Translations under genes and position numbers: made by a program
The notes under the pieces: generated by a model
Databases searched by the model: none
What the model saw: only the letters and a program-made list of their open reading frames with translations
What the model was told of the DNA's origin: nothing
NCBI RefSeq assembly: GCF_900111125.1
Contig: NZ_FOGE01000009.1
Coordinates: 62,001-126,000 of the forward strand
Source: Sphingobium sp. YR768
GTDB lineage: Bacteria; Pseudomonadota; Alphaproteobacteria; Sphingomonadales; Sphingomonadaceae
DNA length: 64,000 nt
Reading direction: 5' to 3'
Part shown: piece by piece, positions 19,760 to 57,358 of the stretch
Layout: each line of letters begins with the position of its first letter
Numbering within the stretch: position 1 is the first letter of the stretch

Positions 19760-20611
19760 TCAGTTCCCGAACACGACCGTCTTGGCGCCGTTGGGCAGCA
19801 CCCGATGGGCGATGTGCCAGCCGACCGCCCGGCCCAGCACCCGGCTTTCGATCTCGCGCCCCTTGGCGACCAGCACGTCGGGCGAATCCTCATGGCTGAC
19901 CGGTTCGACCGCCTGATGGATGATCGGCCCTTCGTCGAGGTCGGCGGTGACATAATGGGCGGTCGCGCCGATCATCTTCACGCCCCGGGCATGCGCCTGA
20001 TGATAGGGTTTGGCGCCCTTGAAGCTGGGCAGAAAGCTGTGATGGATATTGATGCAGCGGCCCGACAGGAAGGCGGCCAGATCATCGCTCAATATCTGCA
20101 TATAGCGGGCCAGGATCACCAGTTCCGCGCCGGTCTGATCGACCAGCGCCTTGATCTGCGCCTCCTGCTGCGGCTTTATATCCTTCGTGATCGGCAGGTG
20201 ATGAAAGGGGATGTCCCCGATCTGGCTGACCGTCAGCGCATCCGCCGGATGGTTGCCGGCGATGGCGACGATGTCCATCGGCAGCTCGCCGATCCGCTGC
20301 TTGTAGAGCAGATAGCCCAGACAATGATCGAATTTCGACACCAGAATGAGGACGCGCATCCTTTGGTCGGCCGGCACCAGTTTCCAGTCCATGCCATGGT
20401 CGCCCGCCAGCAGAGCGATTGCATCGCGCAAACTGTCCACATCCTTGTCGCTTTCGAACATGATGCGCAGGAAGAAGCGGCCCGTCTCGCGATCGTCGAA
20501 CTGGCGGGATTCGAGGATATTGCCGCCCTGCGCGAAAATCGCGCCGCTCACATGATGGACGATGCCCGGCCGGTCGGGGCAGCTGAGGACGAGCGTATAG
20601 GTCTGGGGCAT
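19760..20611 (-). CDS. purU: Formyltetrahydrofolate deformylase
   Basis: 283 residues. The N-terminal ACT domain starts [20 protein letters not shown]. The formyltransferase-like catalytic part has [17 protein letters not shown] and [18 protein letters not shown], with the catalytic Asp in the last motif. It hydrolyses 10-formyl-THF to THF and formate. Two nucleotides separate it from folD, and 27 nt from the metF-like gene upstream, forming a metF-purU-folD operon. In this arrangement PurU is the final step that releases the methyl carbon as formate and regenerates THF for the demethylase. Confidence 0.97.
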
Positions 20612-20638
20612 GTGTCTCTCCTGATATTATGATGGGGG

Positions 20639-21490
20639 TCAGGCGGCGCGGCAGCCGCGCGGCGCGGCGCCCGCCTGCACCAGCCAGTCGGCGGTCTGGG
20701 CGAAGCCGCCGAAGGGGAAGATGTGCAGATGCACCTGCCCCGTCCGTGTCGGTTCCAGCCCCGCCTGCAAATCCGCGACGAAGCGATCCGGCCCGGCATT
20801 GCCGAACAGGCGGCCGAGCGACAGGCCATATTTGGCGACCGCGCCCGCCGACGCCGTGACGCCACAGCGCGTGGCATAGCGCAGCAGGGTGCGCACGCCG
20901 GTCGGCCCCGGAATGCCGATACGCACTGGCTGGCCGATGCCGCGCGCCCGCACCTGCCGCAGCCAGTCCAGCACCCGCTGCGCGTCGAAGGAAAATTGGG
21001 TGACGATCTGGCTGTCCAGCCCGCGCGCGGTCAGGGCGGCGACCTTGTCCTGCATCGCCTGCCAGATCACATCTTCCGCCACATCGGGATGACCGTCGGG
21101 ATGGCCGGCGATGCCGACGCTTGTGACGCCATGTCGTTCGATCAGGCCGGTGGCGATGACCGACAGGCTGTCCGCGAACGGCCCGATCGGTCGGGCTAGG
21201 TCGCCTGCGATCAGGAAGATCGTGTCGACCTGCGCCTTCTCCCGCAGCGCGCCAAGGAGCGTGTCGAGCGCCGCCTCGCTTGGCAGGCGCCGGGCCGAGA
21301 TATGTGGCACCGGCACAAGGCCGGCGGCGCGGATCATGGCGCAGGCGTCGATCCGGGCGGCGTCGCTCTCTTCGGGCAGATAGGGAACATAGACCTGCGC
21401 CGGGCAAGGCAGATCGTCGGCGATGACGATGGTGGCGGCGTCCTTCGCCGTGGCTTCGATACTATAGTTGCTAAGAATGTCGCTGAACAT
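20639..21490 (-). CDS. metF: Methylenetetrahydrofolate reductase-like protein
   Basis: 283 residues from ATG 21490; upstream in-frame codons are arginine-rich without family character. The PF02219 TIM-barrel pattern is seen: EATAKDAATI near the N-terminus, TIFLIAGDLARPIGPF (the flavin-site region GD), IAGHPDGHPD, and VTQFSFDAQRVLDWL, which matches the conserved ITQ-FFD segment. It lacks some canonical MetF residues (for example the usual PPR near the N-terminus is absent), so it belongs to a divergent branch. Expected role: oxidising 5-methyl-THF, made by the O-demethylase, to 5,10-methylene-THF, the reverse of the biosynthetic direction. The symbol is by similarity. Confidence 0.85.
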   Translation of the reverse strand: MFSDILSNYSIEATAKDAATIVIADDLPCPAQVYVPYLPEESDAARIDACAMIRAAGLVPVPHISARRLPSEAALDTLLGALREKAQVDTIFLIAGDLARPIGPFADSLSVIATGLIERHGVTSVGIAGHPDGHPDVAEDVIWQAMQDKVAALTARGLDSQIVTQFSFDAQRVLDWLRQVRARGIGQPVRIGIPGPTGVRTLLRYATRCGVTASAGAVAKYGLSLGRLFGNAGPDRFVADLQAGLEPTRTGQVHLHIFPFGGFAQTADWLVQAGAAPRGCRAA

Positions 21491-21742
21491 CGGCGTGACC
21501 TGTCGCTGTGTCGGGATGGTCGCGACATGCCATCGGCGTCGGCGCGGCAGTAGCGCGCGAACCCGCAACAATCTGGTGCGGAAGAGGCGCATCCCTCGAT
21601 TTTGCCGGCATTTTGCGCCGTCCGCGCGCTGTTGCGGAAGACGCGACAGTGTGGCGCGGATCGGGGCGTATCTGGGGACAGTCGAGCCTTGCTAAGCCCC
21701 ATGACGGGCCGCGAGAACGCGGCAGGAGGATCGAGGAAAGGA
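21491..21742. promoter_or_regulatory. Divergent promoter region, metF-purU-folD / O-demethylase
   Basis: The 252-nt gap contains TGGTGCGGAAGAGGC at 21574-21588, matching the sites at 15331 and 25731. Near the right end AGGAGG (about 21725) and AGGAAAGGA (21733-21741) precede the demethylase gene. I looked for a folate or SAM riboswitch and saw no convincing core. Operator role is inferred. Confidence 0.5.
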
Positions 21743-23077
21743 ATGAACATGACGCCCAAAAGCCTGCAACAGGCGATCGATGACGCCGGATCGCCGCTGG
21801 GCGTGGTCTGGAAACCCAATGCCAAGAGCTGGGAAGTGCCGGTGATCCAGCCCGAATATATCGGCTGGCGCGCCGAACAGGCCGCCTGGCGCGACAATGT
21901 GGCGCTGAGCGACCTGTCGCATCATATGTGGGACTTGTGGATCGAAGGGCCGGACGCGCTGCGCCTGCTGAAGGATTATAGCGCCAATAATTACGAGAAT
22001 TTCGTCGTCGGCCAGGCCAAGCAGTTCGTGCCGGTCACGGCGAAGGGCGACATCGTCACCGACGGCATATTGATGCGCGACGCGGAGGAGCGGTTCAACC
22101 TGTCGGGCGTGCCCGCTTCGCAAAGCTGGATCCGCTATCATGGCGAGAAGGGCAGCTATGATGTGGAGATGCGGGTCGACCCGGATTCCGGCCTGCGCAA
22201 GGCGGGCGAACCGATCCTGTTCCGCTATCAGATTCAGGGGCCGAACGCCCTGCCGCTGGCCGAAGCCCTGTTCGGCGGACCGCTGCCCAAGACGAAATTC
22301 TTCCATTCGACCCCGGTGTCGCTGGGCGGCCGCAATTTCCGCGCCTTCCGCCATGGCATGGCGGGGATGCCGGGTTATGAATTTATCGGCGACTGGGCCG
22401 ACGCCGCCTATGTGAAGGAGGCGATCCTGAAGGCGGGCGAGGAATTCGGCCTGGTCCATGTCGGCGGCAAGGCCTATTACACCAACGGCATCGAAAGCGG
22501 CTGGATCCCCACCCCCACGCCCGGCATCTTCAGCGATCCCGACCTGCGCGGCTATCGCGAATGGCTGAGCCTCTTTTCCTATGAGGGGCAGAAGCCGCTG
22601 CACGGCAGCTTCTATTCGGACAATATCGAGGATTATTATGTCTCCCCGTTCGAGCTGGGCTATGGCAAGTCGATCGCCTTCAACCATGATTATCTGGGTC
22701 GCGAGGCGCTGGAGCGGGCGAAGGATGATTATCGCCGCCGCCGCGTGACGCTGATCTTCGACAAGGACGATATGGACCGGGTGTTCGGCCAGCCGGACTA
22801 TCTCAACAGCTATGGCCGTTATCGGATCGAGGCGGGCGGCAAAATGGTGGGCATGTCGTTCCAGACCGGGCTGATCGGGCCGCTGAACACGATATTGTCG
22901 CTGGCGCTGGTCGATCAGGACCATGCGGCGCCCGGCACGCAGGTCGAATTCGTCTGGGGCGAGCATCCCGGCCCCGGCCATGATCCGGCGGGCGATTTCG
23001 GCTTCCAGCGCCTGCGCGCCACGGTCGCGCCGTCGCCCTATAATGATCATGCGCGGACGGATTATCGGAAAGATTGA
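21743..23077 (+). CDS. Tetrahydrofolate-dependent aromatic O-demethylase (LigM/DesA-like, GcvT family)
   Basis: 444 residues from ATG 21743; ATG 21749 is an alternative with better ribosome-binding-site spacing. From memory the protein follows vanillate/3-O-methylgallate demethylase LigM and syringate demethylase DesA of Sphingobium across its length: VALSDLSHHMWDLWIEG, AKQFVPVTAKGDIVTDGI, FRAFRHGMAGMPGYE, NGIESGWIPTPTPGIF, DNIEDYYVSPFELGYG. It is an aminomethyltransferase (GcvT)-type fold that transfers the methyl of an aromatic methoxy group to THF. The adjacent metF-like, purU and folD genes give a complete route from methyl to formate, strong context for this role. Which methoxyaromatic is used cannot be decided here. 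Confidence 0.92.
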   Translation: MNMTPKSLQQAIDDAGSPLGVVWKPNAKSWEVPVIQPEYIGWRAEQAAWRDNVALSDLSHHMWDLWIEGPDALRLLKDYSANNYENFVVGQAKQFVPVTAKGDIVTDGILMRDAEERFNLSGVPASQSWIRYHGEKGSYDVEMRVDPDSGLRKAGEPILFRYQIQGPNALPLAEALFGGPLPKTKFFHSTPVSLGGRNFRAFRHGMAGMPGYEFIGDWADAAYVKEAILKAGEEFGLVHVGGKAYYTNGIESGWIPTPTPGIFSDPDLRGYREWLSLFSYEGQKPLHGSFYSDNIEDYYVSPFELGYGKSIAFNHDYLGREALERAKDDYRRRRVTLIFDKDDMDRVFGQPDYLNSYGRYRIEAGGKMVGMSFQTGLIGPLNTILSLALVDQDHAAPGTQVEFVWGEHPGPGHDPAGDFGFQRLRATVAPSPYNDHARTDYRKD

Positions 23078-27032: not shown

Positions 27033-27800
27033 TCAGCGCACCTGGCCCCGGCCGGTCGCGCTCCACCAGATGCCGCCCATTAAGTGGGCGAGATAGGTGG
27101 GGTCGCGATACATTTCGACATCGTGGCCCAGCGTGGTGACGAAGACGCGGCCCTTTTCATAGGAATGATACCAGGCGACCGGATGGTCCGGCCCCATCGG
27201 CTTTGCCACCTGACCCGGCCAGATTTTGGTCGGATCATAGCTGCTTTCATCCACGGTCAGCACCGGGTGGATCGCGACATGCCAAGGATTGGCGAGGACA
27301 TAATATTCGTCGCTCCAGATCCAGCGATCGGGCAGGCCGAAGGTGGCGGGAAAGCCCTTGTCGGCGATCGTCACCGCGGCGGTTTGCAGCATGGGATGGT
27401 TGATGAAGCTGCGGCCGACGAGTTTCTCATACCAGACCCAGTCATTGGCCGGGGTGATGGCGGCGCGATGCACGATGATCGCATTGCCGCCGGCGCGCAT
27501 ATAGGCCTCGAACTTCGCGCGCTGGGCGGCGTTCAGTTGCTCGCCCGGCGTGTTGAGGAACATCACCGCCGCATATTGGCTGAGATCGCCGTCGAACACA
27601 TCGGTCCGATTGGCCCAGGTAAAGGTGAAAGCGTGGAGCTTCGCCAGCCGTTCCAGACTATCGCGGGCGACCGGAATATATTCATAATGATATTTATTGG
27701 GGATGGAGAGGACGAGCAGCTTATATTGGGGATCGGCCAGCGCGGCCGAGGGGAGTAGCATCCCCAGCAGCGCCAGCAAGGCCCAGATCATCCGCCGCAT
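27033..27800 (-). CDS. ThuA-like domain protein, exported
   Basis: 255 residues from ATG 27800, preceded by AAAGGGG at suitable distance; a GTG two codons upstream is possible. The signal peptide is MIWALLALLGMLLPSAALA. The mature protein has the class I amidotransferase-like ThuA fold: YKLLVLSIPNKYHYE near the start, AAVMFLNTPGE, the GGNAIIVHRA strand-turn, and VAWYHSYEKGRVFVTTLGH near the end, given in part. Family knowledge: ThuA-domain proteins are linked to sugar catabolism (trehalose or keto-sugar utilisation), with unknown chemistry. It starts 11 nt after the stop of the beta-helix/propeller gene and so belongs to that operon, which supports a carbohydrate role. Confidence 0.87.
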   Translation of the reverse strand: MRRMIWALLALLGMLLPSAALADPQYKLLVLSIPNKYHYEYIPVARDSLERLAKLHAFTFTWANRTDVFDGDLSQYAAVMFLNTPGEQLNAAQRAKFEAYMRAGGNAIIVHRAAITPANDWVWYEKLVGRSFINHPMLQTAAVTIADKGFPATFGLPDRWIWSDEYYVLANPWHVAIHPVLTVDESSYDPTKIWPGQVAKPMGPDHPVAWYHSYEKGRVFVTTLGHDVEMYRDPTYLAHLMGGIWWSATGRGQVR

Positions 27801-27811
27801 CGCCACCCCTT

Positions 27812-30800
27812 TCAGTCGATATGCGCCGCATATAGGCCATGGTGCGACAGCATGAACAGCGTCTTGCCGTCTGGCCCACCGAACAGCAATTGCAGCGGCC
27901 GTTCGGGCACGTCGATCCGGCCGATTTCCTTGCCATCAGGCGCATAGACGAACACCTGCCCATTGGCGACATAGACGCGGCCCTGCGCGTCGGCGACCAC
28001 GCCCTCCCCGCCGCGATCGGCGAAGAGTTTGAGATCGCTCAGCGTGCCGTTGGCGCTGACCAACGCGCTGTAGGTGCGGTTTTCCGATGCGTTGGTGACA
28101 TGAATGCGCTCGCCCGGCTTGCCCTGCACGAAGCCATAGCTGTCGAGAGAGTGGGAGAAGCGCAGGCCGCGATGGTCGGCCGGTCCCTGCGCGAAGACGC
28201 GCCAGGCCGGGAGCGCGATGCTGCCATCGGGCGAGACATAGGATTGCGCATTGGGCTGTGCCGTGTCGTGGGCGAACATCTCTGACAGGGTGGTGAACTG
28301 GTAAGTTTTGGGATCGATCTGGTCCTTGAACTCGCCATTCACCCACCAGTTGACCGGGAAGACCGTGGCCGCATTGCCCTGTGCCGTCGAGGTCTGCGCC
28401 GCCGGGGTGGCGGGGATGACGCTGATCTGCGTTTCCGGCGCATCGGGCGTGACGCTGTAGACCGTGCCGTTGCGGCCATAGGAGGAGAGGACGAGCAAAT
28501 TGCCGGACTTGTCGATGCTGAGGTTCACCGGATCGAGCGCGGCGTCGCGGACCATTTCCAGACGGCCCGTGTCGGACCAGCGCCAGATGCGCGAGAAGAA
28601 ACGGTCGATGAAATAGAGCCGCCCCCGCGCATCGACCGCGCCGCCGCCAATGCCGTAAAAGCCATCGGCCAGCTTGGCGACCGTGGCGTTGCCGAAGGTC
28701 GAGGGGGCGACGGGTTCGGGCTTGGCCGGCACGTCGAGCACGGCAAATTCACGCTCGCGCACCTCAAGGCCGTGAGTCACGTCCGTAATGGCGTTTTCGA
28801 ACGGATATTTGGTGAGCCGCAGGAAGGTGGCGCAGCCATTTTCGTCGCAGGTGCCGACGCCGCTTTCCGCATTCACATGGACATTGCGGAAGCGGATATC
28901 GTGGGAATTGTAGAGCGACACGGCGGTCGGCGCGGGCTTGCGCGTGCGGGTGACGCGATAGCCGTGGAAATTGGCGACCAGGATATTTCGGGAATCGCGG
29001 ATTTCGAGCGCGACGGCGTCGCCGCTCTCGCCCGCTTCCCCTTCGGTCTGGGGGGCCAGCAATTCCCAGTTGGCGACGCGGTTGAGGCCGATTTCGGTGC
29101 GGACATGATGTTCGACCGACGCCTGAATCAGGCGACCGGGGGTTTCCGTATCGGAAATCAATATGCCGGGATGGCCGAAGCTGCTGGGGCTCCAGATATT
29201 GGCGAAGGTGCCGCCGCCGCCCTGCGTCACCCACAGGCTGGCATATTGACCGGCCCAGCGGCGCGCGGCGTCGGGATCGGCCGTGGCATTGTTGTTGTAG
29301 GGATTGCGGCGACTGCCATCGAAAGCGTCGGTGCCATGGCCGCCCTGAAATTTGACGTCGTTGACCATGGAATTGGCCCCGGCCTTCCACAGCAAGGCGG
29401 TCGCGCGTGGATTGGCGCCGTTGGTGTCGAGCGCGATGCCCGCGACGATCGCGTCGCCGCCCTGTGCGCTTTCGACCAGCGCCCTGGGCGCGCCGACGCC
29501 CTGAAAGGCGGGCGTGCCGTCGGGCAGGACGATCTGGGTCAGGCTGGGGTGCAAGCCGATCAGCGCCGTGTCGGCGCGCAGCCGCAGCGTGTCGCTGACC
29601 TTGTAGAAGCCGGCGGGCAGATAGACGACACGATGGCTGTCGATCGCCTTTTGCAGGACGGCAGTATCGTCCGTGCTGTTGTCGCCCTTCGCGCCCAGCG
29701 TGCGGACATTGACCCAGTCGGACACGGGCGGAAGCGAACGGATGGCGGGCGCGGCGGGTGCGGGCAGGCTGGCGATGCTCTCCGCCTGCATATCCGTCTT
29801 ATACGCACCGATGCGGCCGAGGCCCGGCAGGGTCAGGCCGTGGGTGAAGGACGTGACCTTGTAGGTCGCGCCCTTCCCCGCGACCGTCCGGCCGCTCTCG
29901 CGGAAACGGGCGAAGGTGGGGGTGTTGGCGGCCAGCACATTCTGGAAGCCGACCTGCGTATAGACATTCTTCTCGTTGGAGATGATGACGCCCGCCTTCG
30001 ACACATTTTCGAAGCGGACATCCTGTCCCCAGAGCCAGTCGCCATAGCCGCGGTCGATCTCGATCCCGACCGGCACATTGCGGAAGGCGACGTTGAGCAG
30101 CGTCAGCCCCGCCTCATGTTCGCGGATAGCGGCGTCGCGCTGGCCTTCAAAGGTCGCGTCAACCAGGGCGAAGGGCCATGCCGGCGAGGTTTTTTCCGCC
30201 AGGATGCCATAGCGGCCGCCCTTGAAATGCAGATCCTCCGCTTCGTTGGCGACATGGTAGAGGCCGGCGAGGCCCGATCCGATGTCGAAATCGACATGGC
30301 TGACGAAACTATGCTGGGCGGAATGGAAGCGGATCGCGGTGGCGGCCGGATTGCCGTCCTTGATGCGGAAATCGATATTGCCGAGCGCGGAATAGAAGGT
30401 GCCGGGATTGGCGTCCGCCACATTTTTGTCGAACGGCACGCTGCCGGCCGGGGGGAAGGCGGCGGGCGTGCCGTCCTTGTCGGTCTGACGCTTGCCACCG
30501 GCGAAGATCAGCATATGGGCGACGCCGCGCTGGAAGCCGGGCGTCTTGACGCCCAGTTCGATCACCGGGCGCTTTTCGCCGACGCCGAAGATGCGCACGC
30601 CCGGCCAGAGGAAGAGGGTGCGGCTGATGCGGTAGGTACCGGCAGGAAGAAAGACGATGCCGCCGCCGCCCCTTGCCGCCGCCGCGTCGATCGCCTGCTG
30701 GATCGCCGCGCTGTCATCGGCGCGGCCGTCGCCCACGCCCCGAACCGTCACGGCGCGCGCATCGTCGGGCATGGCGGTATAGACGGACGGCGAGGCAAGG

Positions 30801-30877
30801 GCTGGCTGCGCCGCCGCCAGATATAGCAGCACCGACGCGCAGGCTCCGCTCAATCCACCATGTATGCCGCGATACAT
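27812..30877 (-). CDS. GH55-like double beta-helix protein with C-terminal beta-propeller (paralog 1)
   Basis: 1021 residues with a Sec signal (VLLYLAAAQPALA). The first beta-helix (about 42-350) starts AVTVRGVGDGRADDSAAIQQ and holds FLPAGTYRIS. The second (about 388-690) starts WVNVRTLGAKGD and holds YLPAGFYKVS. This tandem is the GH55 (exo-beta-1,3-glucanase) rib-cage layout, and NPAATAIRFHSAQHSF and VEHH...NWELLAPQTE resemble GH55 landmark segments. From about 735 to the end come repeated strands of a six-bladed SGL/NHL-like propeller (DARGRLYFIDR, DKSGNLLVLS, DAQGRVYVANG), but the SMP-30 metal-binding EGP is replaced. Such a fusion is not one I know as characterised. Likely a periplasmic or surface glycan-active enzyme. 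The nearly full-length paralog is at 34057-37080. Confidence 0.85.
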   Translation of the reverse strand: MYRGIHGGLSGACASVLLYLAAAQPALASPSVYTAMPDDARAVTVRGVGDGRADDSAAIQQAIDAAAARGGGGIVFLPAGTYRISRTLFLWPGVRIFGVGEKRPVIELGVKTPGFQRGVAHMLIFAGGKRQTDKDGTPAAFPPAGSVPFDKNVADANPGTFYSALGNIDFRIKDGNPAATAIRFHSAQHSFVSHVDFDIGSGLAGLYHVANEAEDLHFKGGRYGILAEKTSPAWPFALVDATFEGQRDAAIREHEAGLTLLNVAFRNVPVGIEIDRGYGDWLWGQDVRFENVSKAGVIISNEKNVYTQVGFQNVLAANTPTFARFRESGRTVAGKGATYKVTSFTHGLTLPGLGRIGAYKTDMQAESIASLPAPAAPAIRSLPPVSDWVNVRTLGAKGDNSTDDTAVLQKAIDSHRVVYLPAGFYKVSDTLRLRADTALIGLHPSLTQIVLPDGTPAFQGVGAPRALVESAQGGDAIVAGIALDTNGANPRATALLWKAGANSMVNDVKFQGGHGTDAFDGSRRNPYNNNATADPDAARRWAGQYASLWVTQGGGGTFANIWSPSSFGHPGILISDTETPGRLIQASVEHHVRTEIGLNRVANWELLAPQTEGEAGESGDAVALEIRDSRNILVANFHGYRVTRTRKPAPTAVSLYNSHDIRFRNVHVNAESGVGTCDENGCATFLRLTKYPFENAITDVTHGLEVREREFAVLDVPAKPEPVAPSTFGNATVAKLADGFYGIGGGAVDARGRLYFIDRFFSRIWRWSDTGRLEMVRDAALDPVNLSIDKSGNLLVLSSYGRNGTVYSVTPDAPETQISVIPATPAAQTSTAQGNAATVFPVNWWVNGEFKDQIDPKTYQFTTLSEMFAHDTAQPNAQSYVSPDGSIALPAWRVFAQGPADHRGLRFSHSLDSYGFVQGKPGERIHVTNASENRTYSALVSANGTLSDLKLFADRGGEGVVADAQGRVYVANGQVFVYAPDGKEIGRIDVPERPLQLLFGGPDGKTLFMLSHHGLYAAHID

Positions 30878-30889
30878 CCATCAGGCTCC

Positions 30890-30928
30890 GTAAAAATGAA
30901 GACGTCCCGGCCGTGCAGGACCGGGACG
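30890..30928 (-). terminator. Rho-independent terminator after the large TonB receptor gene
   Basis: Read on the minus strand: CGTCCCGG (30928-30921) and CCGGGACG (30910-30903) form an 8-bp stem, followed by TCTTCATTTTT. It lies between the receptor stop (30958) and the start of paralog 1 (30877), so the latter is expressed by read-through or from its own promoter in this short gap. Confidence 0.8.
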
Positions 30929-30957
30929 AGTTTGGGGGGAGGTAATCTTATTTTCTA

Positions 30958-33921
30958 TCAGAAATTGAAGCGGACACCGGCGCGATAGACACGGCCCAGC
31001 GTATCGTAGAGCGCCGGATTCACGTCCAGACCGGTGTTGGTCTGGGGCGATGCCGTCGGATCGCGATCGAACAGATTGTCGACCTTGCCATAGATGGACA
31101 GATTGTCGCCCAACTTGAAGGTGGCGCCGATGTCGACATAGAAGGCGCCCTTCATCTTGTTATAGTCGATCGTCGGATGGTTCGCGGTCGAAGTCGGGCA
31201 GGACGACTGGCAGACGACATATTGGTTGCCGAAAGTGCCGTCGCTGAACCAGCGTTCCTGCACCGTCAGGCTGAACCGGCCGCTGTCATAGGTCTGCACC
31301 GCCAGCCATTTCCAGTCCGGCGTGTTGCCGTTATTGGCGCCCGCCTGATCCACCGGATCGACGCCCGCGATGCCCGCATTGACGATGAACTTGCGGATAT
31401 GGGTGCCCAGCGCCCGGACGGTGAAGCTGCCCGGCAGGCCGAGCGGCTGCTGCCACTGATAGCTGGCCTCGATATCGAAGCCGCTGGTCCGCCAGGAGGC
31501 AAGGTTGAACGGCTGGACATTGACATAGTTGAGGCTGGGATCGGCATTGTCGAGGCTGAAGCCGCCGCAAAAGGCCTGATTGCCCTCAAAGCAGAATTGC
31601 ACGATCTGCTGCGCCGACAGGCTGGAGACGACGCCCTTCAGCTTGATATCATAATAGTCGAAGGACAGGCTGAGGCCCGGCAGCCAGGAGGGGCGCGCCA
31701 GCACGATGCCCAATTCGGTGTTGCGGGCGATTTCCGGCTTCAGATTCTGGTTGCCGATCGTGTTCTGGAAAATCTGCACCGCCTTGCCCTGGAAGGGATC
31801 GTTGAAGCTGGGCACAGTCGTGACGGTCGGGGCGGCGAACAGTTCGGACAGATTGGGTGCGCGGACGTCGCGCGAGGTGACGGCGCGCAGGCGGATGCCG
31901 TCGAGCGGCGTGTCCCATGTGCCGCCGACCTTCCAGGCCCAGACCGTGCCCGACGTGCTGTAATGGGTGCCGCGACCCGCCGCGTTCAGGTTCGCGCGGC
32001 CCATCGCCTCGCTGTCGAACAGCGGCATGTCGATTTCCACGAAGCCTTCATAGACTTCATATTTGCCGCGGCCATTTTTGTAATTGCCCGCCGCCCAGTT
32101 GCTGCCCAGCGAGGAGTTGAGCAAAGGATCGGCCGGATAATCAGGGCTGTTGGGGCTGAGATCGGATACGCCCGCGCCATAGGGATCGGCATTCACGCGA
32201 TAGAATTCGCGGCGATATTCCGCACCGAAGGCGACCGAGAGCGGCCCGGCCCACAATTCCAGCGGATTGCCCGAGAAGTTGAGGCTGGCGACATCCTGCG
32301 TCAGCTTGGTGTGCTGGAACGGGCCATTTTCGTGCGGCGCGACATAAGCGAGCGCGGCGGCCGAAGGGGTGAAACCACCGAAGACGTTGATCGGCACGCA
32401 GCCATTGGCGCGGGCGACCGGATCGGCACAGACGATCGCGCCGTTCAGCTCAATCGCATTGGATGCCGCCGCATAGCGGCTTTGCAGCACGATATCCTTC
32501 ACCCTTATGTCCGAGATGGTGATGCCATGTTCATAATAGGCATCATAATTCCAGTCGGTGCCGGCCGCGCCGAACTTGCCCTTTGCCCCGGCGACGAAGC
32601 GATATTGCTTACGGTCGGTATAGACCTGCGGATCGGGGAAGGCGCCGTTGGAGGAACCGAAGCTGAAGGACGTGATGCCGGCCTCTGCGCACTGGTCCTT
32701 CACCAATTGCGGCAGATAGGCATTGGCGCACTGCACCGTCAGGCTGGACCGGGTATAGCCGGGATTGGGCTGGTTGTTGGTCTTCACCTGCGCGACGTTG
32801 ACGGTGACATAGGCTTCATTGTCGTCGGCGAAATCATAGCCGATCCGGCCATAGCCGTTGATGCGCTCCAGCGAGGATTTGAGCGACGCGCCCGATCCCG
32901 GCGCGCCCGTCAGGTCGCCGCCTTCGCAGAAGCTGTTGCCGCGATAGCAGTTGGTGACGGCGCCGGTGCCGGTGGGCGTGCCGTTCGACCCATAGTTGAA
33001 CTGATAGGGATTGCCCTGCGGGTCGAAGGCGATGCCCTGCAACGGGCCGTTGTTGATCAGGCCGTAGCGGGCATATTGATAGGGCTGCGCATAATCGCGA
33101 TACACATATTGCGGCAGGCCATTGTTGGTCTGGCCCGTGTTCATCAGCGTGGTGGCGCGATACCAGTTGCGACTGCCGGCCAGGTCCGTGCCGAAGTCAC
33201 CGGCGCCCACGCCGCCTTCATGATCATATTCGCCGCTGACCACCACATGCAGGCGATCGTCCATGAAGGACTTGCCATAGGCGGCCTGCACCAGCGCGGT
33301 TTCGTCATCGCCATATTTGGTGATGCTGCCCAGGATATTGCCCTTGAACCCTTCGAAATGGGTGTCGGTGATGAAGTTGACCACGCCGCCGACCGCGTCC
33401 GACCCATAGGAGGCCGAGGCGCCACCGGTGACGACGTCGACGCGCTTCACCAGCAGTTGCGGGAACATGGAGATGTCGGGAACGCCGGTGACGTTGGCGC
33501 CGACGACGCGCTGGCCATCGAGCAGAGTCAGGGTGCGGATCGCGCCGAGGCCACGCAGCGAGAAGGAACTGAGGCCCTGCTGGCCGCTCGACGTGGAGAA
33601 GGTGCCGGTGGCGGCGCCGGTCGAGCCTTGCAGCGAAGGCAGCTGGGCGATGGTGTTGAAGATGTTGGGCTGGGCGTTGTTGGCGATCTGCTCCTCACCG
33701 ATGACGGTGGTGGGCGTGGGCGCATTGAAGCCGCTGGTGGTGATGCGCGATCCGGTGACGACGATGTCGGCGGCGCGGGGCGCTTCGGCCTGTGCGGCGT
33801 CTTCCTGCGGGGCGACGGCTTGCGGGGCTGGCGCGGTCTGGGCCTGCGCGGTGCCCGCCAGCGCTATGGCGGCCAGGCTGACGCTGGCCAGATGCCGGTG
33901 GAGTGCGATCGTCACTTTCAT
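30958..33921 (-). CDS. Large TonB-dependent receptor (carbohydrate-type)
   Basis: 987 residues. The signal peptide ends near LAGTAQAQ. The plug begins DIVVTGSRITTSGFNAPTPT, with RGLGAIRTLTLLDGQRV and VDVVTGGASASYGSDAVGGV as typical segments. The barrel closes with YRAGVRFNF. This long subtype with an Ala/Pro/Gln-rich spacer before the plug is common in sphingomonads and Xanthomonas beside glycan-degrading genes. It stands between two paralogous GH55-like genes and is preceded by the palindromic site 34014-34035. Likely imports oligosaccharides or glycosides released by the flanking enzymes. Confidence 0.93.
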   Translation of the reverse strand: MKVTIALHRHLASVSLAAIALAGTAQAQTAPAPQAVAPQEDAAQAEAPRAADIVVTGSRITTSGFNAPTPTTVIGEEQIANNAQPNIFNTIAQLPSLQGSTGAATGTFSTSSGQQGLSSFSLRGLGAIRTLTLLDGQRVVGANVTGVPDISMFPQLLVKRVDVVTGGASASYGSDAVGGVVNFITDTHFEGFKGNILGSITKYGDDETALVQAAYGKSFMDDRLHVVVSGEYDHEGGVGAGDFGTDLAGSRNWYRATTLMNTGQTNNGLPQYVYRDYAQPYQYARYGLINNGPLQGIAFDPQGNPYQFNYGSNGTPTGTGAVTNCYRGNSFCEGGDLTGAPGSGASLKSSLERINGYGRIGYDFADDNEAYVTVNVAQVKTNNQPNPGYTRSSLTVQCANAYLPQLVKDQCAEAGITSFSFGSSNGAFPDPQVYTDRKQYRFVAGAKGKFGAAGTDWNYDAYYEHGITISDIRVKDIVLQSRYAAASNAIELNGAIVCADPVARANGCVPINVFGGFTPSAAALAYVAPHENGPFQHTKLTQDVASLNFSGNPLELWAGPLSVAFGAEYRREFYRVNADPYGAGVSDLSPNSPDYPADPLLNSSLGSNWAAGNYKNGRGKYEVYEGFVEIDMPLFDSEAMGRANLNAAGRGTHYSTSGTVWAWKVGGTWDTPLDGIRLRAVTSRDVRAPNLSELFAAPTVTTVPSFNDPFQGKAVQIFQNTIGNQNLKPEIARNTELGIVLARPSWLPGLSLSFDYYDIKLKGVVSSLSAQQIVQFCFEGNQAFCGGFSLDNADPSLNYVNVQPFNLASWRTSGFDIEASYQWQQPLGLPGSFTVRALGTHIRKFIVNAGIAGVDPVDQAGANNGNTPDWKWLAVQTYDSGRFSLTVQERWFSDGTFGNQYVVCQSSCPTSTANHPTIDYNKMKGAFYVDIGATFKLGDNLSIYGKVDNLFDRDPTASPQTNTGLDVNPALYDTLGRVYRAGVRFNF

Positions 33922-34013
33922 TCATCCATCCCCTTTTATCTCCGACAGCCCTCCCGCCGCCGGGCGCCCATGACGGGCTATTGTGTGAGTATTACCCCCT
34001 GCCCTTCTTCGCC

Positions 34014-34035
34014 GCACTTACGACATAGGTCGTAG
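34014..34035. promoter_or_regulatory. Palindromic operator candidate, copy 1 (TonB receptor promoter)
   Basis: Core CACTTACGACATAGGTCGTA with an ACGAC-N4-GTCGT palindrome. The same 22-nt stretch occurs at 37141-37162 with two differences. It lies 93 nt upstream of the receptor start; a TAATAC about 20 nt downstream of the motif could be a -10 element. Inferred regulator site. Confidence 0.65.
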
Positions 34036-34056
34036 ATGCGACGGAAGGCCGGATTT

Positions 34057-37000
34057 TCAGGGCTTTGCGGCGTAAAGCGCGTGGTGCGTCAGGATGAACA
34101 GCGTGCGCTTGTCCGGGCCGCCGAACAGGATCTGGAGCGGGCGTTCGGGCACGTCGATGCGGCCCGTTTCCTTGCCGTCGGGACCGTAGACGAAGATTTG
34201 CCCGTTCGCGACGAACACCCTGCCCTGCCCGTCCACGGCGACGCTTTCGCCGCCGCGATTGGCGAAGGGCTTGAGCGCGGTCAGCGTGCCGCTTGGCCCC
34301 ACCGTGCCGCTATAGGTGATATTTTCCGACCCGTTGGTGACGAACAGGCGATCGCCGATCTTGCCGGAGACGAAGCCGTTGGCGTTGAGCCCATCGGACC
34401 AGCGCCAGCCGGTGTGATCGATCGGACCCTGCTGCCAGACGCGGAAGGCGGGCAGGGACAAGCTGCCGTCGGGCGAGACATATTCCTTTGCCTTGGGCGT
34501 ACCGGCATCGCGGACGAACATGTCTGCGAGGGTGGTGAATTCGTAGGTCTTCGGGTCAAGCTGATCCCTAAACTCCCCATTATTCCACCAGTTGACCGGC
34601 AGCAGCGTCTTGCCCGCGCCACCGCTGCGCATCGGGGTCGGCTGGATGAGCGTCATCGCGTCCTTGGGACCGGCGGGGTCGAAAGAATAGGCGCCGCCCT
34701 TCGCGCCGAGCGAGGACAGGACCAGGACATGGCCCGAGGCGTCGATGGCGAGATTGACCGGATCGAGCGCATGATCGCGGACGATTTCCAGCCCCTTGCC
34801 CTCGCTCCAGCGGTGGATGCGCTGGAAGCGGCGGTCGATGAAATAGAGTTGCCCTTGCGCATCCACCGCCGCGCCGGAGATGGACCAGAAGCCATCTTCC
34901 AACTTCTCGACCTTGGTGCCCGAGGGCGCCGCTGCCGGGACCGCGCTACCGGCCGGACCGATGTCGAGCCCGGCGAACTCGCGTTCGCGCACCAGCAGCT
35001 TGCGGCTGACATCCTCGATCGCATTGTCGAACGGATATTTGCTGGCGCGCAGGAAGGTGCCGCAGCCTTCATCGTCGCAGGTGGCAAAGCCGCTTTCGCC
35101 ATTCACATGGACATTGCGGAAGCGGATATTGCCCGAATTGGTGATCTTCACCGCGCTCTTTTCCGGCGCATAGGTGCGAGTGACGCGATAGCCATGATAG
35201 TTGGCGAAGAGCAGGTTGCTGGAGTTGCGGATATCGAGCGAGATGGCGTCCGGACCATCGTCCACTTCCTGCTCGGTCTGGGGGGCAAGGAATTCCCAGT
35301 TGCGCACATTATCGAGCACGATCTCGTTGCGGGCATGATGTTCGACCGACATTTCATAGACATGGCCGGGCGTGTCGGTGTCGGTGACATAGAAGCCCGC
35401 CTGCGCAAAGCTGTTGGGGCTCCACACGTCGGCGAAGGTGCCGCCGCCCCCGTCCGTCACCCAGATGCTGGGATATTGGGCGTCGAGCCGGCTGTCGGTG
35501 ATCGGATCGCCGGTGTTGACGCGCAGCGTGCCCAGCATCTTGCCATCGGCGGTGGGCGTGCCGCCGCCGCCCATGATCTTGACGTCCTCGACCAGGCTCC
35601 GCTCGCCCGAACGCCATAGCAGGGCGGAGGCGCGCGGGTTCACCCGGCCGGTGAACAGGCCGAGGCCCGACAGGATATTGTCGCCACCCTTGCGGCTTTC
35701 GAGGATCGGAAGGACGGCGCCGAGGCCCGCATGTTTGGGGTTGTTGTCCGGGATGAACAATTGGGTGATGGCCGGGTGCAGGCCGATCAGGATACTGTCC
35801 GGGCGCAGGGTCAGCCGGTCCGTCACCTTGTAGAAGCCGGTCGGGAAATAGAGGATGCGGTTGGCGTCGATCGCCTTTTGCAGGGCGGCGGTGTCGTCCG
35901 CCTTGCCGTCGCCGACCGCGCCCAGCGTGCGGACATTGATCCATTGGTCCATGGGCGGCAGGTCGCGGATCGCGGGCGCGCGTGGCGCCGGTAGGCTGGA
36001 GAGCGACTGGATGTCGGCGGTGGTGGCGTATTCGCCGGTGTGACCGAGCGCCGGGACGGCAAGGCCGTAGGAGAAGTTCGCGACCTTATAGGCCTTGCCC
36101 TTGCCGTCGATCGTCTTGCCGCTGTCGCGGAAGCGGGCGAAGACCGGGCTGTTCACGGCCAGCGCGTTGTCGAAGCCGATCTGGGTGAAGACATTCTTCT
36201 CGTTCGAGATGACGACCCCGGCCTTCGACACATTCTCGAACCGGACATCCTTGCCCCACAGGCTGTCGCTATAACCGCGGTCGATCTCGATCCCGACCGG
36301 CGTATTCTTGATCGCGACATTGACGAGGGTGAGATCGACTTCATGCTCGCGGATCGCGGCGTCGCGCTGGCCGTCGAAGCTGGAGTCGAGCAGGGTGAAC
36401 TGCCAGGCGGGCGAAGTCTTTTCGGTGACGATGCCGTATCGGCCGCCCTGGAAATGGACATTCTCGATCACGTTTCCGGCCTGATAGACGCCGGCAAAGG
36501 CGGTGCCGAGGCGGAATTCCATATGGCTGAGAAAGGCATGCTGGGCCATGCGGAAGCGCACACCGGCGGCGGCCGGATTGCCCGCGCCAATCTCGATATC
36601 GACATTGCTCATCGCGGAATAGAAGGTGCCGGAATTGGCGTCCCGCACCACCTTGTCGCGGGGTATGACGGTCGGCACAGGGACCGGCACCTGACCGACA
36701 TTATATTGATCGCCGCCCGCGAAGATCACCATGGTCGACACGCCCTGCTGGAAGCCGGGGGTGTTGACGCCGAGCAGCAGCACCGGCCGGGTCGGGCCGA
36801 CGCCATAGACGCGTACGCCCGCCGGGACGATCAGCGAGCGGGTGATGCGATAGGTGCCCGATGGCAGGAAGACGATGCCATGGCCGGTCGCGTCGCGGGC
36901 CTGATCGAGCGCCTGCTGGATCGCGGCGCTGTCGTCAGCGCGGCCGTCACCCACGGCCTTCACCGTGACGGCATGGGGCTCGGCGGGTGCGACCGGGAAG

Positions 37001-37080
37001 ACCGAGGTCGTCGCGGCAAAAGCCGGTGCCCCCAATGCGGTTGCCGCCAGCAAAACCGCGATCATGCTGCGTCCGATCAT
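34057..37080 (-). CDS. GH55-like double beta-helix protein with C-terminal beta-propeller (paralog 2)
   Basis: 1007 residues from ATG 37080 behind GGAGGCGG. The signal peptide is SMIAVLLAATALGAPAFA. Domain order equals that of the protein at 27812-30877: beta-helix one (AVTVKAVGDGRADDSAAIQQ), beta-helix two (WINVRTLGAVGDGKADDTAA), VEHH...NWEFLAPQTE, and a propeller ending IDVPERPLQILFGGPDKRTL. Many blocks are identical between the two, for example EIDRGY and DVRFENVSKAGV. The pairs differ most around the first 40 residues of the mature protein and in the 510-540 insert. Duplication around a shared receptor suggests two related substrates or endo/exo division of labour. Catalytic residues cannot be fixed by eye. 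Confidence 0.85.
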   Translation of the reverse strand: MIGRSMIAVLLAATALGAPAFAATTSVFPVAPAEPHAVTVKAVGDGRADDSAAIQQALDQARDATGHGIVFLPSGTYRITRSLIVPAGVRVYGVGPTRPVLLLGVNTPGFQQGVSTMVIFAGGDQYNVGQVPVPVPTVIPRDKVVRDANSGTFYSAMSNVDIEIGAGNPAAAGVRFRMAQHAFLSHMEFRLGTAFAGVYQAGNVIENVHFQGGRYGIVTEKTSPAWQFTLLDSSFDGQRDAAIREHEVDLTLVNVAIKNTPVGIEIDRGYSDSLWGKDVRFENVSKAGVVISNEKNVFTQIGFDNALAVNSPVFARFRDSGKTIDGKGKAYKVANFSYGLAVPALGHTGEYATTADIQSLSSLPAPRAPAIRDLPPMDQWINVRTLGAVGDGKADDTAALQKAIDANRILYFPTGFYKVTDRLTLRPDSILIGLHPAITQLFIPDNNPKHAGLGAVLPILESRKGGDNILSGLGLFTGRVNPRASALLWRSGERSLVEDVKIMGGGGTPTADGKMLGTLRVNTGDPITDSRLDAQYPSIWVTDGGGGTFADVWSPNSFAQAGFYVTDTDTPGHVYEMSVEHHARNEIVLDNVRNWEFLAPQTEQEVDDGPDAISLDIRNSSNLLFANYHGYRVTRTYAPEKSAVKITNSGNIRFRNVHVNGESGFATCDDEGCGTFLRASKYPFDNAIEDVSRKLLVREREFAGLDIGPAGSAVPAAAPSGTKVEKLEDGFWSISGAAVDAQGQLYFIDRRFQRIHRWSEGKGLEIVRDHALDPVNLAIDASGHVLVLSSLGAKGGAYSFDPAGPKDAMTLIQPTPMRSGGAGKTLLPVNWWNNGEFRDQLDPKTYEFTTLADMFVRDAGTPKAKEYVSPDGSLSLPAFRVWQQGPIDHTGWRWSDGLNANGFVSGKIGDRLFVTNGSENITYSGTVGPSGTLTALKPFANRGGESVAVDGQGRVFVANGQIFVYGPDGKETGRIDVPERPLQILFGGPDKRTLFILTHHALYAAKP

Positions 37081-37140
37081 GTCCGCCTCCTATTTCTCTT
37101 TTTCTGGATACAGCATGGCTAGGGGAGCGGGCGCGGATTG

Positions 37141-37162
37141 GCACTTGCGACAAAGGTCGTAG
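37141..37162. promoter_or_regulatory. Palindromic operator candidate, copy 2 (paralog 2 / gluconokinase divergent region)
   Basis: Core CACTTGCGACAAAGGTCGTA, matching 34014-34035 at 20 of 22 positions in the same orientation. It lies 61 nt upstream of paralog 2 on the minus strand and 73 nt upstream of the gluconokinase start on the plus strand, so one bound regulator could serve both directions. Confidence 0.65.
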
Positions 37163-37235
37163 TTTTCCTGAGGTGTGGCGCGGCCTTATAGCAGTGGAAC
37201 CGATCCCCACTATCCCAGCGCATAAGGACGCCCGC

Positions 37236-37772
37236 TTGCCGATTTCCGCCGATCCTGCCCCTGGCTCCCACCGTGCTGTCATCGTTATGGGGGTGAGTGG
37301 CTGTGGCAAGTCGACGTTGGGGGCGCTGGTGGCGCTGGCGCTGCATTGCCCCTTTCTGGAAGGCGACAGCTATCATTCGGCGGCGGCGGTGGAGAAGATG
37401 CGCGGCGGAGAGGCGCTGACCGATGCGGATCGCTGGCCCTGGCTCGACCGGCTGGGCGCGGCGATCGCCGACACGGTTGCGGCGCAGAGCGTGGCGGTCG
37501 CCGCCTGCTCGGCATTGAAGCGCGTCTATCGCGACCGGCTGCGCGCGGCGATCGGCGTGCCGGTGCATTTCATCCTGCTCGACAATGACCGCGACGCCCT
37601 GCTGACGCGAGTGGGCAACCGGCCGGGCCATTATATGCCCGCCAGCCTGCTCGACAGCCAGCTCGCCACGCTGGAGCCGCCGCTGCCCGAAGAAGGGGCG
37701 ATGATCCTGACGACCGACATGCCGCCGGAAGCGCTGCGCGACCGGGTGCTGGACTGGCTGGGATGTCGTTGA
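37236..37772 (+). CDS. gntK: Gluconokinase
   Basis: 178 residues if translation starts at TTG 37236, which has AAGGA 7 nt upstream. The first in-frame ATG (37287) would cut into the P-loop, so it cannot be the start. The P-loop GVSGCGKST, the segment FLEGDSYHSAAAVEKMRGGEALTDADRWPWL (shown here only to mark the conserved GD-H-N-K/M pattern, in part) and RVGNRPGHYMPASLLDSQ are characteristic of GntK. It phosphorylates gluconate to 6-phosphogluconate for the Entner-Doudoroff or pentose phosphate route. Divergent from the GH55-like gene with a shared operator candidate, which ties the locus to a gluconate-yielding sugar pathway. Confidence 0.9.
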   Translation: MPISADPAPGSHRAVIVMGVSGCGKSTLGALVALALHCPFLEGDSYHSAAAVEKMRGGEALTDADRWPWLDRLGAAIADTVAAQSVAVAACSALKRVYRDRLRAAIGVPVHFILLDNDRDALLTRVGNRPGHYMPASLLDSQLATLEPPLPEEGAMILTTDMPPEALRDRVLDWLGCR

Positions 37773-56272: not shown

Positions 56273-57358
56273 TTGAGCGACACGAACAGACAGCATGTCG
56301 AGGAACCCGGCCCCAGCGAAGTTCGCAGTCCGTTAGTCAGCCATGAATTGCAGCGCGCGGGCGTGTGGTTCGCGCTGGCCATCGCCATTGCTATGGTGGT
56401 GCTGCTGGCGCAGCCGCTGATGCTGATCATGGGCGCGCTGGTGCTGGCGACGATGATGGACGGCGGCACGCGGCTGCTGGGCCGGGTGCTGCCGATTTCG
56501 CGCGGATGGCGCCTGACCATCGTGCTGCTGGGCGCAGTCGCCTTCATGGCCTATACTTTCTACCTTACCGGATCGAGCCTGGCGGCGCAGGCGCAGGCGA
56601 TGCGCACCATCGTCGAGGCACAGGTGGCGCGGGTCGGCGGCTGGATGCAGCAATTGGGCATCAGCACCACGCCCGACGACCTCAAGAGCCTGGCCAGTCA
56701 GGCGATGAGCAGCATGGGCCGGGTGACGGCGGCGGTCGGCACGGCGGTCGGCGCGGTGACGAGCGGCGTCATGATGCTGGTTCTGGCGATCTTCATCGCG
56801 GTCGAGCCGAAACTCTATGAGCGCGGCGTCGCCTGGATGCTGCCGATGGAGAAGCGCGCCCATTTCTACGCCATCGCCGACAAGATGGGCTGGACGCTGC
56901 GCCGGCTGATGTTCGGCCGGCTGATCGGCATGGCGGTGGAGGGCGTGGGCACATGGCTGTTGCTGTGGGCCGGCGGCGTGCCGATGGCGGGGCTGCTGGG
57001 CATATTGACCGGCCTGTTCGCCTTCCTGCCCAATATCGGATCGATCATATCGGGCGTGCTGATCATATTGGTCGGCTTTTCCGGGGGCACCGACACGGGC
57101 CTCTATGCCTTTGGCGTCTATCTGGCGGTGCAGGTGATCGACGGCTATCTGATCGTGCCGATGGTGGCCAAGCGCGCCACCGATCTGGCCCCGGCGCTGG
57201 TGCTGGCGGCGCAGATATTGTTCGGCGCGCTGTTCGGCCTGATGGGCCTGTTCCTGGCCGATCCGATCGTGGCGATGATCAAGGTCTATCTTGAGGAACG
57301 GTCCAAGGCGCTGAAGGGACGGGCGAAGGATGGCGCCAAGGCGGAGCCGGGCGTTTAG
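56273..57358 (+). CDS. AI-2E family (PerM-like) transporter
   Basis: 361 residues from TTG 56273, which has AAGGGG about 10 nt upstream; no ATG lies in a better place. About eight TM helices occur, with the family segments MLVLAIFIAVEPKLY, AFLPNIGSIISGVLI and LVLAAQILFGALFGLMGLFLADP near the end (in part). Members include the sodium/proton-linked PerM and the TqsA exporter. It is downstream of lepB by 21 nt. Substrate unknown. Confidence 0.9.
   Translation: MSDTNRQHVEEPGPSEVRSPLVSHELQRAGVWFALAIAIAMVVLLAQPLMLIMGALVLATMMDGGTRLLGRVLPISRGWRLTIVLLGAVAFMAYTFYLTGSSLAAQAQAMRTIVEAQVARVGGWMQQLGISTTPDDLKSLASQAMSSMGRVTAAVGTAVGAVTSGVMMLVLAIFIAVEPKLYERGVAWMLPMEKRAHFYAIADKMGWTLRRLMFGRLIGMAVEGVGTWLLLWAGGVPMAGLLGILTGLFAFLPNIGSIISGVLIILVGFSGGTDTGLYAFGVYLAVQVIDGYLIVPMVAKRATDLAPALVLAAQILFGALFGLMGLFLADPIVAMIKVYLEERSKALKGRAKDGAKAEPGV

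Follow-up and report, generated by a model that had tools for sequence, protein, structure and literature searches.

Enzymes of GH55, such as PcLam55A (3eqn), CtLam55 (5m5z), MnLam55A (8jhh), and SacteLam55A (4pew), are composed of two linked parallel β-helix domains (the rib-cage fold) and carry a general-acid Glu with a partner Glu-His pair. In the account given for MnLam55A, Glu614 is the general acid, Glu591 takes part in the proton relay, Glu591-His592 belong to the water relay and subsite −1, and Tyr617 orients the acid (PMC10637969). Proteins of the SMP-30/gluconolactonase group (3dr2, 3e5z, RPA3624, and Caulobacter XylC) are six-bladed propellers. The Caulobacter operon CC1225/CC1224 encodes an aldose-aldose oxidoreductase and a gluconolactonase; this oxidoreductase and Zymomonas GFOR both form gluconic acid from glucose, and what the Caulobacter enzyme does physiologically is described by its authors as unclear (PMC4628093). 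Here we describe a locus of Sphingobium sp. YR768, contained in a stretch of 64,000 nucleotides (contig NZ_FOGE01000009.1, positions 62,001 to 126,000; hereafter the window, numbered from its first nucleotide), that encodes two proteins in which a GH55-like double β-helix is fused to a propeller.

The fusion is a predicted GH55-related glycosidase with an apparently metal-less SMP-30-type propeller, situated in a conserved gluconate-use locus. It resembles GH55 enzymes in the double β-helix, which extends across the whole helix half, and in the general-acid Glu with its partner Glu-His, but differs in the replacement of the acid-orienting Tyr, the extra C-terminal propeller, and the gluconate gene context. 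The propeller resembles SMP-30 proteins in its six blades, its SGL match, and its nearest Foldseek neighbours, but has lost metal ligands and is joined to a glycosidase. At some of the loci, homologues of the Caulobacter pair accompany the fusion, and the window's genome has them elsewhere, whereas the published operon, as described in PMC4628093, is presented without a GH55-like fusion.

Architecture and fold of the fusion proteins

The fusion proteins are encoded on the minus strand at positions 34057–37080 (paralogue 2, 1007 residues) and 27812–30877 (paralogue 1, 1021 residues), on either side of a TonB-dependent receptor (TBDR) gene (30958–33921, minus strand, 987 residues, with Pfam Plug and barrel domains). 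Transcription runs from paralogue 2 through the receptor and paralogue 1 to a ThuA-domain protein, with intergenic gaps of 135, 80, and 5 bp, respectively. All four proteins have signal-peptide-like starts, as judged by eye. The paralogues are 59% identical over their entire length. Each is matched by Pfam PF12708 over two stretches (E 1.2e-37 and 5.2e-35) and at the C-terminus by SGL (PF08450), above the cut-off (E 6e-12 and 6.3e-12). In paralogue 2, the GH55-like double β-helix spans residues ~28–708 and the six-bladed SGL-type propeller spans residues ~715–1007; paralogue 1 has the same architecture.

An AlphaFold model of paralogue 2, built with 69 family sequences, has a whole-chain predicted local distance difference test (pLDDT) score of 91.1 and a predicted template modelling score of 0.92. 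Residues 28–708 match PcLam55A (3eqn) with a VIA Z score of 33.5 and a root-mean-square deviation of 2.9 Å over 612 aligned residues. Other GH55 structures follow (5m5z, Z 33.4; 8jhh, 32.5; SacteLam55A 4pex, 23.5), and the remaining matches are single-helix epimerases and tailspikes with Z scores of at most 25. As modelled, the helix half adopts the two linked parallel β-helix domains of the rib-cage fold. The family profile also matches the sequences of 5m5z (1.4e-23), 3eqn (3.2e-17), and 8jhh (1.7e-10).

The whole-chain VIA lists are filled by the helix half, and the neighbours of the propeller were taken from a separate model of residues 712–1007 (pLDDT 93). The best matches are SMP30 (3g4e) and gluconolactonase (3e5z), with Z scores of 16.5 each, followed by NHL domains (16.1) and DFPase (16). 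Because these scores are tied within 1, the fold alone cannot choose between SMP-30, DFPase, and NHL; the PF08450 match in the sequence favours SGL.

The initial annotation had proposed a GH55-type tandem helix and a six-bladed SGL/NHL-like propeller in one chain, duplicated on both sides of the receptor, and these results bear it out. It had also named this order as not known from any characterised enzyme, and we found no description of a helix–propeller fusion in the open-access literature. The annotated records examined name the fusion generically, as 'glycosyl hydrolase family 28-related protein'.

Candidate active-site residues

Residues were counted in an alignment of 69 rows, comprising the two window proteins and 67 of 68 non-redundant relatives (the row left out, L068:13286–16348, is near-identical to paralogue 1); items A4 and A5 draw on 35 of the same rows. 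Residue numbers are those of paralogue 2, and equivalences were assigned by profile alignment, not by superposition.

Glu603 aligns with Glu614 of MnLam55A and, in PcLam55A, with the Glu of its QTE motif. Glu580-His581 align with Glu591-His592 of MnLam55A, at the same 23-residue spacing to the acid. All three residues are invariant (69/69), although invariance alone is weak evidence, because 136 of the 1007 positions are invariant. The mapping of the GH55 catalytic Glu, suggested as a check in the initial annotation, points to Glu603 as the putative general acid with Glu580-His581 as its partner; in fold and catalytic residues, the modelled helix half is consistent with a sugar cleft, the lack of which had been named as an objection. 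For the Trp552-Asp557 loop (Trp552, Trp554, and Asp557), the CtLam55 and MnLam55A alignments give conflicting placements, and no alignment to MnLam55A was obtained for the N-terminal GH55 subsite residues Glu140, Phe143, Gln172, and Ser203.

We take the divalent-metal ligands of SMP-30 proteins to be a Glu, an Asn, and an Asp. The position of the Glu (734) is hydrophobic in every row (Ile 43, Leu 18, Ala 6, Val 2), consistent with the earlier proposal that the SMP-30 metal-binding start has been lost. The Asn is kept in only 6 of the 69 rows and is otherwise Tyr (50), His (11), Leu (1), or Ser (1). The Asp position is occupied by Glu throughout, a match that is clear in only one of two alignments. 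We considered the propeller as a plain gluconolactonase and ruled this out, as the metal Glu is lost and canonical SMP-30 proteins coexist with the fusion. The propeller has 35 invariant positions out of 293, including Glu836, Asp839, Arg893, Glu945, and His999.

Because the GH55 acid is kept and the SMP-30 metal site is degraded, the helix half is likely to be the catalyst and the propeller is unlikely to be; with its degraded site, the propeller probably binds rather than hydrolyses. Judged from these alignments, the fusion likely works like a GH55 enzyme.

Distribution and linkage to gluconate genes

The survey across genomes that had been recommended reveals a recurrent family in several groups of bacteria, with fusion relatives at at least 79 distinct loci. 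At least 120 copies align over 900 residues or more, and all 120 of these translate cleanly, which rules out an artefact of one assembly. In evenly drawn samples that include the window's own genome, the full-length fusion is present in 3 of 398 phylum genomes and in 16 of 298 family genomes. Match scores drop sharply, from at least 1378 to at most 52 bits in the family sample and from 1605 to 48 bits in the phylum sample. An apparent helix-only relative in genome G454 (926 bits, positions 8–576) was rejected, as its match ends at 56985 and is cut by the contig end at 56989.

The fusion proteins form a discrete family of old origin, with members in Sphingomonadales, Caulobacter, Oxalobacteraceae, and Acidobacteriota. 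The closest named relatives are from Sphingobium strains (L068, 97–99%; L008, 91–96%). The tree, which is rooted at the midpoint only, has one group of 30 rows and another of 39 (support 97). Both contain one window paralogue together with Caulobacter and Novosphingobium rows, indicating that the duplication is old. Six Acidobacteriota rows cluster as a single clade within the second side of the tree. In Sphingomonas, Asticcacaulis, and Sphingobium, the fusion is also carried on plasmids of 0.26–1.25 Mb (NZ_CP110112, NZ_AP029026, NZ_CP155749, and NZ_CP081002), hinting at transfer of the locus.

Neighbouring genes were counted over the at least 79 loci, with up to 10 kb of DNA, often less, on each side. 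Near the fusion are a TBDR (68 of 79 loci), a gluconokinase (57), a GntR-type regulator (55), a GntP permease (46), a small LuxR-type protein (38), a Gfo/Idh/MocA oxidoreductase (20), a canonical SMP-30 protein (19), and a ThuA protein (2). Annotated records likewise place a gluconokinase, a FadR/GntR regulator, and a gluconate:H+ symporter beside the fusion. The gene order is TBDR-gntK-fusion-gntP, all in one direction, in Asticcacaulis, and gntK-TBDR-gntP-fusion in Massilia and Duganella; these minimal operons contain no oxidoreductase or lactonase. Gene order differs among clades, yet the linkage recurs, which speaks for selection on the linkage.

In the window, the gluconokinase gene (GntK/IdnK type; open reading frame 36987–37772, plus strand) is divergent from paralogue 2. 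Its true start probably lies within the open reading frame, because the kinase match spans 37281–37757 only. The protein exceeds the curated TIGR01313 cut-off (166 versus 113.75 bits), and a profile search found it to be the only match above the cut-off in its genome. A cluster of GntP, GntR, LuxR-type, oxidoreductase, and SMP-30 lactonase genes lies apart from the fusion operon in the same genome (contig C35, 58000–72000; L101); relatives including L009 have both sets joined. The solved structures nearest to the C35 oxidoreductase are those of Caulobacter aldose-aldose oxidoreductase (5a02, 7e-146) and Zymomonas GFOR, and the C35 lactonase matches gluconolactonase 3dr2 (2.3e-39). The C35 region also encodes a protein that we take to be RecA-like.

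As a control, we compared the 16 genomes with the fusion and the 282 without it in the same family sample. Gluconokinase is present in 12/16 versus 26/282 (Fisher p 4e-9), GntP in 14/16 versus 23/282 (p 2e-12), and the oxidoreductase in 13/16 versus 33/282 (p 2e-9), p values that overstate the association because related genomes are not independent and kinship is kept in the counts.

The initial annotation had read the receptor, ThuA protein, and gluconokinase as signs of a use locus. Gluconokinase, under-weighted there, is the main clue, together with the permease and the regulator. The ThuA protein (27033–27806, minus strand; ThuA E 8.3e-52) lies 5 bp downstream of paralogue 1 and is probably co-transcribed with it in the window, but is ruled out as part of the system by its presence at only 2 of 79 loci.

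Several further neighbours were observed. The small LuxR-type protein (for example, L009:6628–6948) has ~100 residues and consists of a LuxR/GerE DNA-binding domain only. A cluster of seven loci has an α/β hydrolase beside or near the gluconokinase (L024:8207–9184, L021:8317–9804, and L023:408–1301); the L024 protein, the only one run, matches Pfam Abhydrolase_3 and BD-FAE. A Beta_helix (PF13229) protein directly adjoins the fusion in a Vicinamibacteria metagenome-assembled genome (L078:13013–15013) and in Croceibacterium (L075:7610–9766). At 19760–23077, the window encodes proteins whose translations appear to resemble formyltetrahydrofolate deformylase, methylenetetrahydrofolate reductase, and tetrahydrofolate-dependent O-demethylase (LigM/DesA), presumably a one-carbon/aromatic demethylation cluster adjoining the glycan locus.

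A proposed route from glycan to gluconate

We slightly favour a reading in which the fusion proteins are exported glycosidases that serve the conversion of an imported glucoside or glucan into gluconate, with a propeller that probably binds rather than hydrolyses. The TonB receptor would take a glucoside, oligosaccharide, or polysaccharide through the outer membrane. Both fusion proteins would be inverting, GH55-like enzymes with a propeller of SMP-30 fold and degraded metal site, and in the periplasm their GH55 half would free glucose or a fragment ending in gluconate. A periplasmic oxidoreductase resembling GFOR and aldose-aldose oxidoreductase, or some other enzyme that oxidises glucose, would yield gluconolactone, which a separate canonical gluconolactonase would open. 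GntP would then import gluconate and GntK would phosphorylate it, feeding the Entner-Doudoroff pathway.

Several observations weigh against this pathway, besides the overstated p values and the fact that we infer both the substrate and the activity of the fusion proteins. Position 606, three residues after Glu603 and equivalent to Tyr617 of MnLam55A, is never Tyr in the 69 rows (Ala 33, Val 28, Gly 5, Thr 1, Ile 1, Ser 1). The profile of the C-terminal helix domain alone retrieves no GH55 chain at E ≤10, and among GH55 chains that of the N-terminal domain retrieves only 5m5z (0.0014) and 3eqn (0.48). Gluconokinase is absent from 4 of the 16 fusion-bearing family genomes, which counts against a strict tie, and tests of five Acidobacteriota genomes, and of the L046 and L075 genomes, found no gluconokinase above the cut-off. 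In 50 genomes chosen from the 79 loci, a search confined to two glucose oxidisers found the oxidoreductase (at E 1e-60) in 44 and the TIGR03074 membrane dehydrogenase (above the cut-off) in 20; six genomes have neither (Acidobacteriota L074 and L083, plus L024, L025, L027, and L039). The last four have both GntK and GntP at the fusion locus.

These six genomes allow for a scheme in which gluconate is released directly from a glycan that is oxidised. Here the propeller would recognise an end formed by an aldonate or lactone, and the GH55 half would cut the adjoining β-glucosidic bond of an oxidised oligosaccharide, with no periplasmic oxidation of glucose. The minimal operons of receptor, fusion, GntP, and GntK, and the four genomes with GntK and GntP but neither tested oxidiser, agree with such a scheme, and the invariant positions of the propeller fit a functional pocket. 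We nevertheless consider it rather unlikely, as most of the 50 genomes do have the oxidoreductase, we found no precedent for aldonate binding by such a propeller, and GH55 enzymes are described as attacking from non-reducing ends (PMC10637969). A glycosidase specialised for aldonate-ended (oxidised) β-glucosides, whose metal-less propeller recognises a terminal gluconate or lactone, whose GH55-like half cleaves next to it, and which passes gluconate straight to GntP and GntK, is distinctly improbable; if true, this would be a locus for polysaccharide use centred on oxidised glycans.

The replacement of the acid-orienting Tyr also bears on whether the fusion is a plain secreted β-1,3-glucanase, with the propeller as a relic or carbohydrate-binding add-on and the gluconate genes as merely convenient neighbours. 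In both fold and sequence, the helix half comes closest to β-1,3-glucanases, and some loci have no gluconate genes, but the Tyr is lost throughout, the propeller is kept in the full-length relatives examined, and the linkage recurs in several gene orders and is matched by the genome-level association. We regard a plain glucanase as quite improbable. Because the Tyr is replaced, and since activity is predicted from sequence, we do not file the fusion as a GH55 member: it is GH55-related, not a proven β-1,3-glucanase. A non-glucan substrate, for example a phenolic glycoside from plants or a side chain that carries uronic acid, would accord with the esterase, GH3, GH67, or GH43 genes near some loci and with the hesperidin rutinosidase-type activity already reported within GH55 (PMC10637969). 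Such neighbours differ by locus, however, and the gluconate genes recur more often, making this explanation very improbable.

The favoured reading, in which a glucoside or glucan is imported and turned into gluconate, suggests a little-studied use of a sugar polymer or glycoside. From the link between the fusion and the genes that import and phosphorylate gluconate, we predict a glycan-to-gluconate route that operates without a glucose sugar kinase, and the pathway would give the periplasmic aldose-aldose oxidoreductase a function.

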